Notes under the pieces: generated by a model
What the model was told of the DNA's origin: nothing
Database searches by the model: none
What the model saw: only the letters and a program-made list of their open reading frames with translations
Translations under genes and position numbers: made by a program
From: Deltaproteobacteria bacterium
GTDB taxonomy: Bacteria > Desulfobacterota > Desulfobaccia > Desulfobaccales > 0-14-0-80-60-11
Reading direction: 5' to 3'
NCBI GenBank assembly: GCA_016875015.1
Contig: VGSJ01000011.1
Location: 1 to 55,984, forward strand
DNA: 55,984 nt
Shown: positions 216 to 39,719 of the stretch, piece by piece
Layout of the letters: every line of letters begins with the position of its first letter
How positions within the stretch are numbered: the stretch's first letter is position 1

Positions 216-318
216 ATACCATGTTCGTTTTCACATGAAACAAACTCATTGGTGGGGCGGGCCTCCGTGCCCGCCAGCGTTCAGAGAGTTTGTTGCGACT
301 GAATTATGAACATGGTAT
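216..318 (+). repeat. Diverged relative of the 102-bp inverted-repeat element
   Basis: It is bounded by perfect 11-bp inverted repeats, ATACCATGTTC and GAACATGGTAT, and is 103 bp long. The three 102-bp copies elsewhere have ATACCGTGTTC ends; here G is changed to A at one end and the matching base at the other, so pairing is kept. The interior differs, carrying the 25-bp GGTGGGGCGGG...CCCGCC block (251-275) that also appears, reverse complemented, at 32079-32103 and 41641-41665. Confidence 0.65.
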
Positions 319-9552: not shown

Positions 9553-9965
9553 TCCCGGGTTGCCCTCAAAAAGCTCTTTTCCTAGTGGTTGATTGCATTA
9601 TACCGTGTTCGTTTTGTAGGGGCGGGTTTGAAACCAGCCCCTACGAGAGATATCAATAGGTTATCTGGATGGTTTGTTTCATTTCAAAGGGAACACGGTA
9701 TTAATCTAACGCATATTTAAAGATGGGGGGAAATTCCCCCCCTTTCTAAAGGGGGGTAGGAGGGATTAAATAAGCGCTTGATAATCCCCCTAAATCCAAT
9801 ACGGTTCACTTAAGGTTTGGCTATTTCGATGGGTTGCTGGGGCAAGGATGCCCCCCCTCACCCCAGCCCTCTCCCCCAATGGGGAAAGGGGTCAGGGTGA
9901 GGGGGAAGTGATCTTCACGGAGTTAAGAAATACGTTACCGTAGTTATGAACCACTGTGCTAAGCA
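9553..9965. other. Gene-free stretch downstream of der, made of repeats
   Basis: It contains the 102-bp element at 9600-9701, then a diverged CCCCCTTTCTAAAGGGGGG hairpin with AATCCCCCTAAATCC (about 9722-9803, related to the 174-bp element interior). From about 9850 to 9966 lies a partial third copy of the direct repeat seen at 2875-3012 and 3959-4150. The last bases of that repeat touch the stop codon of the next (minus-strand) gene. Confidence 0.6.
9600..9701 (+). repeat. 102-bp inverted-repeat element, copy 1
   Basis: Its ends are perfect 11-bp inverted repeats ATACCGTGTTC and GAACACGGTAT. Inside, a hairpin GTAGGGGCGGGTTT...CCCCTAC is followed by ATATCAATAGGTTATCTGG and TTTGTTTCATTTCAAAG. 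It encodes no protein. Nearly identical copies lie at 23781-23882 (same orientation) and 31493-31594 (reversed). This copy has one interior mismatch (AAACCAGCC for AAACCCGCC). Confidence 0.85.
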
Positions 9966-22377: not shown

Positions 22378-22551
22378 TATAGCGTTTGCCATAAATTCCT
22401 TCCAGTTGGCGGTTCTTAAATCCCCCTAAATCCCCCTTTGCCAAAGGGGGACTTTAATAGTTATTCCTTATAGTTCCCCCCTTTTCTAAAGGGGGGTTAG
22501 GGGGGATTAGAATGATTCCGCTATCGGAAAATACTTTTGGCATTCGCTATA
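22378..22551 (+). repeat. 174-bp inverted-repeat element, copy A
   Basis: Its ends are imperfect inverted repeats beginning TATAGCGTTTGCCA and ending TTTTGGCATTCGCTATA. Inside are two CCCCC(T)n...(A)nGGGGG hairpins and GATTCCGCTATCGGAAAA. A second copy of exactly the same length lies in reverse orientation at 50412-50585. A further left end (TATAGCGTTTGCCAAAAG) starts at 22548, overlapping the right end, as if two elements were abutted. It encodes no protein. Most of the nuoN-to-22690 gap is this element plus a degenerate CCCCTCTCCCC hairpin. Confidence 0.8.
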
Positions 22552-22633
22552 GCGTTTGCCAAAAGTTCTTTCCTATTATCCCCTCTCCCCCCAACGGGGG
22601 GGGGGTGATTGTTTCCTCCTGACAGGCTGGCGC

Positions 22634-23615: not shown

Positions 23616-23780
23616 AGTTGATTGCTGGCGCCCTTTAGCCAGGGCCTCAAGGTCGATCGGTTCTCAAGGAGAGCGATAATCCCGGCGACTCACGTCCACG
23701 CCCTGGCAGCAAAGCTGCTGACGATATTTTGGGCTACGGGCGCGCCATGGTCAAGCAGATAGTATCCGGCGCGCCCTCTG

Positions 23781-23882
23781 ATACCGTGTTCGTTTTGTAG
23801 GGGCGGGTTTGAAACCCGCCCCTACGAGAGATATCAATAGGTTATCTGGATGGTTTGTTTCATTTCAAAGGGAACACGGTAT
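23781..23882 (+). repeat. 102-bp inverted-repeat element, copy 2
   Basis: Perfect 11-bp inverted ends (ATACCGTGTTC/GAACACGGTAT) and a perfect interior hairpin GTAGGGGCGGGTTT-G-AAACCCGCCCCTAC. It is the least degraded copy. The rest of the 23616-23975 gap holds only GC-rich sequence with another GGGCGGAC...GTCCGCCCC hairpin near 23955-23980; no gene is seen there. Confidence 0.85.
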
Positions 23883-23975
23883 GATACCAAGTTGCAATCA
23901 AACGGGTACTTTTTGGCATTGTCGGGGCTGATCTAGGTGGCGGCCCTCTGGTCGGGCGGACACGCGGGTCCGCCC

Positions 23976-31443: not shown

Positions 31444-31492
31444 CGGCTCTGATTGCTCCATTTTTCTGTAGGGTGGGCACGGCCCACCATTA

Positions 31493-31594
31493 ATACCGTG
31501 TTCCCTTTGAAATGAAACAAACCATCCAGATAACCTATTGATATCTCTCGTAGGGGCGGGTTTCAAACCCGCCCCTACAAAACGAACGCGGTAT
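31493..31594 (-). repeat. 102-bp inverted-repeat element, copy 3 (reversed)
   Basis: Same length and sequence as the copies at 9600 and 23781 but in reverse orientation. One end reads GAACGCGGTAT instead of GAACACGGTAT, a single mismatch in the inverted repeat. It lies 50 bp upstream of the TPR gene. Short hairpins of the type GGTGGGCA.TGCCCACC lie on either side (31471-31489 and about 31619-31638). Confidence 0.85.
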
Positions 31595-31644
31595 AAGGTA
31601 TCTTGAGGTTCAAAAAAAGGTGGGCAATGCCCACCCTACATGAA

Positions 31645-37445: not shown

Positions 37446-38894
37446 TTAAATATCTAACTTACGGTTTTCTCTGGATACAGGTTTCGCTTCCTTATAGGGT
37501 GAAATGGTGGTCGGAACATTTGGCTTGACTCCAGCAAAAAGTTCTTCAATGGTGACTATCTGGATTTTAGGATAATCTCTCTTAGAAATTGGTGAGTTAT
37601 AAAAACCTTTTATTACGGCTTCAGATTTCATTTGTTTAGTAGGAGACTCCAAGGTAATCAATAATCCCAAATCAGCTTCTTCTCTATCCATAACATGGCC
37701 TAACTCCCTTATGTCTTTAACAGATACATTGCCTCTCTTGACTTGTACTATGGCTGGCCTGACAATATCTTTCTCGTGAGTAAAGTAAATATATCCATCT
37801 ATTCCTGTATCAGCGCCTCTTTTCTTGTCTTTATACGGTCTGGCATTAATTAAAGAGAGAGCCCACCATTGAAACTGATAACGATTGTGCGAAGATAGTT
37901 CTCTGGCCCCTTCCAAATCATCAGGTTCTCCAATGACTTTAAAATCAATCTTGGGTACTATCCCAAACATTTTATTTAATCGTAGTTTTATTGCATTTAT
38001 CGCCAGGTGGGTTATATCAATGCCGATCCAATTTCTCTTGAGCTTATGTGCCACGGCTACTGTGGTGCCGCAACCGCAGAAAGGATCAAGAACAACCTCA
38101 CCCTCATTGGAGGAAGCCTTGACAATTCGTTCCAACAATGCTTCAGGTTTCTGCGTCGGGTAACTTAGTCTTTCTTTAGCTGACGGAGCTATCGGCTGAA
38201 TTTGCCACCAATCATCCGGTTGCTTACCTAAAGGATGCAGTTGCTGTATTCCAAAATCTTTACCTCCCCTGATATTCCCTATATAATGTTTAAATCTTTC
38301 CTTGGTTGCTTCGGCATATTCCTCTCTAACCTCATCTAAATTAAAGATATAATTTGATGTTTTTGAATATCTTAAAATTATATCGTGTCTTCTGCCAAAA
38401 TCATGTTTCGGATAACCGGCGCCCCTGTAACACCAAACTATTTCATTTCTAAAGTTATTTTTACCAAAAATAACATCCATGAGTAATTTAATATAATGGC
38501 TCGCTGTTGGATCACAATGCAAATAAATTGTTCCGGTATCTTTCAGCACCCTTTTCAATTCTAATAATCTAACACACATCATAGTTATATAGGCAATCAC
38601 ATCATTTTTTTGACCTACGAATTTTCTCAGACTCCTCATCATCTCCACTACATCTGCGGGAGCTTCGTCAACTATGTTTTTGAAGGTTTTTTCAGTTTCG
38701 TCAGTCCAGTGCCAGGTATCCTCAAAGGCGGTTATCTGAGCTTTTGAAAGTGCTCCGGTAGGTTCCTTAAAAAGAACATTATAGTCGGCCTTGGAATTAA
38801 AAGGAGGGTCAAGATAAATTAAGTCTATTGAATTAGTGAGAATATATTCTTTTAAAATTTTTAGATTATCCCCGTAAAAAAGTGTGTTCTGCAT
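37446..38894 (-). CDS. DNA methyltransferase fused to an Mrr-like nuclease domain
   Basis: A 482-residue protein with two parts. Residues 1-310 form an amino-methyltransferase of the beta arrangement: motif IV DPPF at 29-32 comes first, then TQKPEALLERIV and the SAM-binding DPFCGCGTTVAVA at 270-282. These enzymes methylate adenine N6 or cytosine N4. Residues about 335-460 look like a PD-(D/E)xK nuclease of the Mrr type: GADTGIDGYIYF (Asp362/Asp366) and AIVQVKRGNV (Gln384-x-Lys386), then a helix and LLITLESPTKQMKSEA. The gene is strikingly AT-rich against its neighbours, a sign of recent transfer. No separate restriction gene is present, so it may be a single-protein modification/restriction enzyme; that is inference. 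Confidence 0.9.
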   Translation of the reverse strand: MQNTLFYGDNLKILKEYILTNSIDLIYLDPPFNSKADYNVLFKEPTGALSKAQITAFEDTWHWTDETEKTFKNIVDEAPADVVEMMRSLRKFVGQKNDVIAYITMMCVRLLELKRVLKDTGTIYLHCDPTASHYIKLLMDVIFGKNNFRNEIVWCYRGAGYPKHDFGRRHDIILRYSKTSNYIFNLDEVREEYAEATKERFKHYIGNIRGGKDFGIQQLHPLGKQPDDWWQIQPIAPSAKERLSYPTQKPEALLERIVKASSNEGEVVLDPFCGCGTTVAVAHKLKRNWIGIDITHLAINAIKLRLNKMFGIVPKIDFKVIGEPDDLEGARELSSHNRYQFQWWALSLINARPYKDKKRGADTGIDGYIYFTHEKDIVRPAIVQVKRGNVSVKDIRELGHVMDREEADLGLLITLESPTKQMKSEAVIKGFYNSPISKRDYPKIQIVTIEELFAGVKPNVPTTISPYKEAKPVSRENRKLDI

Positions 38895-38970
38895 TTGATC
38901 GCCTTTTTATCATTAAATGATCTTTTGGAATGCAGGCAGCATGTCAAAAAGATTTGCTGGGTCCCGCCGG

Positions 38971-39276
38971 CTAAGCGGCATAAACGACCTCTTTGGTCGT
39001 TAGGATTTCATGGCGGCGAAACAGGTTGCGGATTGCATCCTTCTCCACCAGATCGACCTGCCGCCCGAAAATTTCGGCAAGCTCATCCAGCATCTCCACG
39101 CGATTATCGAAGGTGATGCCACCATCTGGTTCGAAGGTCACCAGCGCGTCTATATCGCTGTCTGGGCGGAAGTCCTCCCGCAACACCGACCCGAACAGGG
39201 CAAATTCTTTAATCTTCCACCGGCGGCAAAAGTCCTCAATCTGCTTCAATGGAATATTAATCTTGGGTTGAGCCAT
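38971..39276 (-). CDS. MNT-type minimal nucleotidyltransferase
   Basis: A 101-residue protein with the minimal nucleotidyltransferase signature: LFGSVLREDFRPDSDIDALVTF (GS-x-xR...SDID, shown here as in the protein around residues 28-48) and a second acidic position in RQVDLVEKDA. Proteins of this size usually act as the antitoxin half of HEPN/MNT pairs by adding AMP to the HEPN RNase. No HEPN gene is adjacent: a methyltransferase lies downstream and a GxxExxY gene upstream. It is therefore an orphan here, in the AT-rich islet. Confidence 0.9.
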   Translation of the reverse strand: MAQPKINIPLKQIEDFCRRWKIKEFALFGSVLREDFRPDSDIDALVTFEPDGGITFDNRVEMLDELAEIFGRQVDLVEKDAIRNLFRRHEILTTKEVVYAA

Positions 39277-39298
39277 AAGTGTTGCTCAAGGTTCCCAC

Positions 39299-39719
39299 CG
39301 CCGATTAACGCGGATGGACGCAGATTAGAAATTATTCACAATGCGCCTGATTTCCGCCTTAGGCTTGCCAAAATTAATCAGCAAACATACTGAAAGATCA
39401 GTGGCTTTAAGATAATTCAGACATTGGGCCATATGGATATCATCCAGGGCTTTGGTCGTCTTTAGCTCTATAATAACCTTATCCTCAACTAATAGATCTG
39501 CGGCAAACTCGCCAACGACCACACCATCGTATCTGACCTGGATGCCATGTTGCTGTTTGACCTTCAATCCATTTTTTCGTAGTTCAAGAGCTAATGCGTT
39601 CTCATAGACTTTTTCCAGAAAACCGCTTCCCAGCGTATTGCTCACTTTATAAACGCAGCCGATGATCCTTTCTGTAATTCTATCCAGTTTTAATCTGTGT
39701 TCATCTCCGTTCATCGGCG
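39299..39719. mobile_element. Putative small cassette: GxxExxY gene between inverted repeats
   Basis: Two 28-bp ends, 39299-39326 and 39692-39719, are inverted repeats with 23 of 28 positions matching (core CGCCGAT.AACG and CAGATT). The enclosed 129-residue gene takes its start codon from one end and its stop codon from the other. No transposase is encoded, so movement would need help from elsewhere. The elements' boundaries and any target duplication are not resolved by eye. Confidence 0.5.
39325..39714 (-). CDS. GxxExxY protein (PD-(D/E)xK-like)
   Basis: A 129-residue protein of the GxxExxY family. The name-giving motif is seen as GSGFLEKVYENALALEL (residues about 29-45). The nuclease-like core has GEFAADLLVEDKVIIELKT with the Asp and Glu-x-Lys of a PD-(D/E)xK fold, followed by AQCLNYLKAT and LLINFGKPKAEIRRIVNNF. 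The biological role of the family is not established. Both start and stop codons lie inside the flanking inverted repeats, so the gene and its ends form one unit. Confidence 0.92.
   Translation of the reverse strand: MNGDEHRLKLDRITERIIGCVYKVSNTLGSGFLEKVYENALALELRKNGLKVKQQHGIQVRYDGVVVGEFAADLLVEDKVIIELKTTKALDDIHMAQCLNYLKATDLSVCLLINFGKPKAEIRRIVNNF

Follow-up and report, generated by a model that had tools for sequence, protein, structure and literature searches.

We found a new family of miniature mobile elements (MITEs) of composite build, with a REP hairpin inside the MITE, in a draft deltaproteobacterial genome. The window, meaning the whole stretch of DNA that was analysed, comprises 55,984 nucleotides of contig 11 (VGSJ01000011.1) of a 3.1-Mb draft (GCA_016875015.1, 148 contigs) from an uncultured relative of sulfate reducers in the order of Desulfobacca. 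Three near-identical elements in the window are very probably copies of a recently active MITE family, 100 bp long, gene-less and nonautonomous, which has TACC tips, targets TNA and would be moved by a transposase acting in trans.

Three copies in the window

The initial annotation had described three near-identical copies of a 102-bp element with 11-bp inverted ends. Reading of the window sequence confirmed all three copies at their places as well as their near-identity, but not their dimensions: the element proper is 100 bp long with 10-bp inverted ends (TACCGTGTTC...GAACACGGTA), and the outermost A/T of the longer call is part of a duplicated 3-bp target. Each copy contains the inner hairpin GTAGGGGCGGGTTTGAAACCCGCCCCTAC, and no gene was found within the element in the three window copies or in the genome copies read.

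Copy 1 (9601–9700, forward strand) has perfect 10-bp terminal inverted repeats (TIRs), lies between two TTA target duplications (9598–9600 on the left, 9701–9703 on the right) and carries its GTAG-tagged REP hairpin, with one mismatch, at 9616–9644 on the forward strand. Copy 2 (23782–23881, forward strand) is identical to the genome consensus, with the TGA duplication at 23779–23781 and 23882–23884 and the hairpin at 23797–23825 on the forward strand. Its right-hand TGA is immediately followed by the end of a sister element, TACCAAGTTGCAATCAAA (23885–23902, forward strand), next to which the copy had inserted. Copy 3 (31494–31593, reverse strand), whose ends differ by one mismatch (GAACGCGGTA), is flanked by TAA at 31491–31493 and 31594–31596 and has its hairpin at 31550–31578 on the reverse strand. 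A 29-base left-end consensus matched the window three times, at exactly the known copies, compared with no match in 100 shuffles; the pattern of three matches is not due to chance.

Copy number, target duplication and empty sites

The genome-wide search proposed in the initial annotation revealed a much larger family. A DNA search of the genome returned at least 40 full-length copies at 98–100% identity, and a pattern search found 36 copies with both 9-bp ends exact. We read 45 copies with distinct flanks, so that the family has at least 45 members. Among these 45, 21 match the consensus at every base, 16 depart from it at one base and four at two, and the copies carry the 10-bp TIR. A matching TNA was found on both sides of 46 of the 53 copies examined, a set that includes copies from relatives; the matched targets were TTA (24), TAA (18), TGA (3) and TCA (1). 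The low divergence, high copy number and fresh target duplications together indicate recent spread.

We searched 9.7 kb around copies 2 and 3 in the three other species of the genus. The copy 3 flanks are contiguous in two of them (G001 contig 237 and G003 contig 158), with a three-base overlap: once joined, they align over 600 bp without a break at 87–88% identity and contain a single TAA. This is the clean empty site that the initial annotation had proposed to look for. The copy 2 flanks fall on different contigs in the sister-species comparison. A second kind of empty site came from within the genome itself. Several of the copies read (L009, L013, L015, L033) interrupt a hairpin repeat, GGTGCGTCTTACGCACC, at its TTA, the target being GGTGCGTC-TTA-CGCACC, and an unbroken copy of this repeat is present in contig 41. 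Both kinds of empty site settle that the element is mobile. Although several copies share this one hairpin repeat, a preference for palindromic targets was not significant overall (p = 0.12). Long mechanical open reading frames cover four of the 45 empty sites, and the pieces read mostly resemble spurious frames.

The element is thus short, lacks a transposase gene, has TIRs, duplicates its target and occurs in many copies with empty sites, as MITEs do. The proposal that it behaves like a miniature mobile element held up on the TNA duplications, the empty copy 3 sites in two species, the copy number and the near-identity; its copies are neither limited to the three in the window nor fixed in all relatives.

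Sister elements and relatives

The core of the element was found in public records of uncultured Syntrophobacterales and Deltaproteobacteria drafts (DeMMO3_32, DeMMO6_13, CG07_land_8_20_14_0_80_60_11 and a DeepCast bin). The one identical copy outside the family, in a public draft of another family (G027), suggested transfer between families, a candidate that we rejected. The copy lies on a 3.4-kb contig (contig 359, VGSX01000359.1; loci L141 and L230) that matches contig C20 at 100% identity over 2252 bp, and it is therefore most likely a mis-binned contig.

Searching the family and phylum with the left end uncovered further elements that share both the left arm (TACC..GTTC.CTTT.AAATG.AACAAA...TATTGATAT) and the TNA duplication. 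In place of the REP, the right arm of many of these sisters consists of CCGAAAA repeats closing in ACGGTA. At loci L202, L239, L212 and L205, the CCGAAAA heptamer arms form a minisatellite inside a MITE. The genome under study also has a REP-less sister of the same left arm, with A-rich repeats (L287). Remoter sister families keep the TACC tip and TNA target but have ends TACCAAGTTGC..TCAAA and other GTAG hairpins, such as GTAGGGGCGGTTCGTGAACCGCCCCTAC at L231. One diverged sister MITE lies in the window itself (217–317, forward strand): it is 101 bp long, with ends TACCATGTTC, a TAA target duplication and a mid-element hairpin, GTGGGGCGGGCCTCCGTGCCCGCC. A search for elements bounded by TACCAAGTT-like ends and identical TNA triplets recovered 43 distinct ones, which form 11 clusters; each of 20 scrambled-end controls recovered 0 or 1.

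Since the REP-less sisters have the same left arm and a CCGAAAA right arm, the REP-bearing arm appears to have joined an older MITE family. The simplest history would be an old MITE superfamily in which one lineage acquired the REP-bearing arm, presumably once and before the spread, and then multiplied. At the level of mechanism, the TACC-tipped ends would be recognised by a transposase acting in trans and integration would occur at TNA with duplication of 3 bp; one arm of the older MITE would have gained a GTAG-type REP hairpin, and the composite would then have spread through this genome in recent times, reaching at least 45 copies, mostly intergenic.

The inner hairpin and a RAYT-like gene

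A GTAG tag and a palindrome define one of two REP super-families (PMC3733652). The hairpin GTAGGGGCGGGTTTGAAACCCGCCCCTAC has both, and judged by its sequence it is a GTAG-tagged REP, distinct from the MITE proper. This description fits only the inner 29 bp: REPs are units of 20–40 bp that are not known to duplicate their target, whereas the 100-bp unit moves whole and duplicates TNA.

The presence of a REP raises the alternative of a mobile hairpin, carried as a REP or REPIN by a RAYT (an HUH tyrosine transposase), with the arms as passengers. The genome offers some grounds for it. The identical 29 bp occur in frame, as VGAGLKPAPT, in a 184-aa RAYT-like open reading frame on contig 15, which matches Pfam Y1_Tnp and scores 72 bits against the REP-associated tyrosine transposase model, under the cut-off of 80; seven Y1 transposase matches were found in the genome. 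Armless hairpins are frequent in relatives, at 97–100% identity over about 29 bp. The hairpin is also better kept than the rest of the element, with 3% versus 12% mismatches in G001 and 2% versus 16% in G003, where the copies are not independent and test values are indicative only. Against this, what moves is the complete 100-bp element: it duplicates 3 bp of its target and is cleanly absent from the empty sites, whereas HUH transposition is not known to produce target duplications. Sister elements are also mobile without the REP. The empty sites, where arms and hairpin are missing together, already largely refute movement of the hairpin by a RAYT, which we consider very unlikely, and we retain the interpretation as a MITE that carries a REP. 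In the RAYT-like gene, the in-frame REP (L290, 1447–1475) follows directly after the HIHG motif. Among the plasmids and phages searched, only the hairpin was matched, in a Gloeothece plasmid.

A broader reading, which we offer tentatively and rate below even odds, is that the TACC-tipped, TNA-targeting MITE superfamily of this order repeatedly takes up REPs and other repeats as swappable interiors. This would constitute a second, RAYT-independent route for REPs, with the REP kept intact by a RAYT, gene conversion or selection as the rest of the element decays. Both the order of events and any recurrence of REP uptake are inferred.

Search for the mobilising transposase

Elements with inverted ends and a 3-bp target duplication are expected to be moved by a DDE-type transposase, which here would act in trans or have since been lost. 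The mobilising insertion sequence (IS) would bear ends TACCNNGTTC.../TACCAAGTTGC... and duplicate TNA. The IS1031 group of the IS5 family likewise makes a 3-bp TNA duplication. Its known ends begin with GAG or GGG, whereas the ends here start with TACC, and no tested PF01609 locus has these ends. The transposase with matching ends that the initial annotation anticipated was sought by end motif, PF01609 and PF13359, and none was found in this draft, which at 148 contigs is broken at repeats, so that an IS present in many copies could have escaped notice. Each of the genome's 95 exact 10-bp ends lies in a 100-bp copy, a damaged copy or an IS-invaded copy, or is a chance occurrence. PF01609 gave eight matches, and the loci tested lacked such ends within about 1.5 kb; PF13359 gave no match in 22 genomes of the family.

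This genome encodes IS1634-family transposases (L104), and an abundant IS of this type adjoins some copies. The 100-bp element could then be a shortened form of that IS, since the same 16 bp, TACCGTGTTCCCTTTG, adjoin it in contigs C10 and C15. In most other genomic copies of the IS, however, the match ends before those 16 bp, and the IS lies inserted within MITE copies, flanked by a target duplication of its own, TTTGA. This derivation has next to no probability in our estimate, and the IS was likewise rejected as a mobilising partner, being a nested insertion whose other copies lack the MITE end. An end in contig C82, also considered as a partner, proved to belong to a different IS, at the start of that contig, nested in a MITE in the same manner. 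A 1.5-kb loose-ended candidate in the Desulfobacca genome was dismissed as chance because it covers part of a gene that we take, from its sequence, to encode carbon monoxide dehydrogenase. Nesting of these two kinds of IS in MITE copies was seen at L078, L079, L088 and L086, the IS1634-like one having about 20 ends at contig ends.

RNA structure and reading frames

The initial annotation also raised the possibility of a structured element. Either a structured RNA or a regulatory element in the DNA, held at its positions by selection, would account for the strong hairpin into which the whole element folds (−41 and −49 kcal/mol on the two strands). The inverted ends suffice to explain this fold, however, and the positions vary between sister species. 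In the most diverged relatives (G009), stem pairs are lost with no compensatory change, and no Rfam covariance model matched the window at the gathering threshold. Selection at fixed positions is extremely improbable, and given the uncompensated breaks and the lack of an Rfam match, an RNA role for the 100-bp element is unlikely.

The element had further been suggested to extend reading frames when it lands near genes. One frame through it is open, so mechanically called frames can enter it, and the TTG-initiated frame of the TPR gene does enter copy 3. We saw no sign that such an extension is used, since the ATG start of the 252-aa TPR protein (31443) lies 51 bp outside copy 3 and relatives keep the flanks without the element.

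Comparison with known systems

Bacterial MITEs such as Chunjie of Geobacter uraniireducens (178–235 bp, 38 fuller and 57 partial copies; review PMC10969869) are likewise short, gene-less and mostly intergenic, with inverted ends, direct target repeats, tens of copies and recent activity. As far as the review's description goes, the element here differs from Chunjie in being shorter and having a REP hairpin. BrickBuilt of Porphyromonas gingivalis, a minisatellite in a MITE (PMC4596501), resembles the sisters here in that repeats lie inside a MITE, as the CCGAAAA arms do, but it has IS5-type ends (GAGAC...), irregular target duplications and an interior 23-bp tandem repeat that is not a REP.

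A REP within a longer palindrome has a partial precedent in cyanobacteria: in Anabaena variabilis, GTAG-15 REP dimers lie in long palindromes (PMC3733652), so that there too a GTAG-tagged REP sits regularly inside a longer inverted-repeat element. That palindrome is a different one from another phylum, its REP is a dimer, and it was not seen without the REP, whereas REP-less sisters exist here. Our analysis adds these REP-less sisters, the empty sites and a range of sister families whose interiors differ. With REPs, REPINs and RAYTs (PMC2817692, PMC3116915, PMC8266576) the element shares the GTAG-tagged 29-bp hairpin, whose sequence recurs within this genome's RAYT-like gene; movement of a whole 100-bp unit with target duplication is not known for REPs.

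The family offers a clear-cut and recent example of a REP, a repeat usually assumed to rely on its own RAYT, that has multiplied to tens of copies within another type of transposon. Were this to hold generally, genomic REP counts would partly mirror MITE rather than RAYT activity; given the empty sites and REP-less sisters, comparison alone can test it. In other respects the family is one further set of MITEs, useful for annotation in that VGAGLKPAPT in predicted proteins marks a translated repeat.

Two other features of the window were observed in passing. A further interspersed repeat, CCCCCCTTTT...GGGGGGATTA..., occupies positions 22490–22602 and is matched many times in two of the sister genomes. 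At 37446–39714, an adenine-specific DNA methyltransferase-like gene is clustered with an MntA-like antitoxin, just under the cut-off, and a GxxExxY protein.
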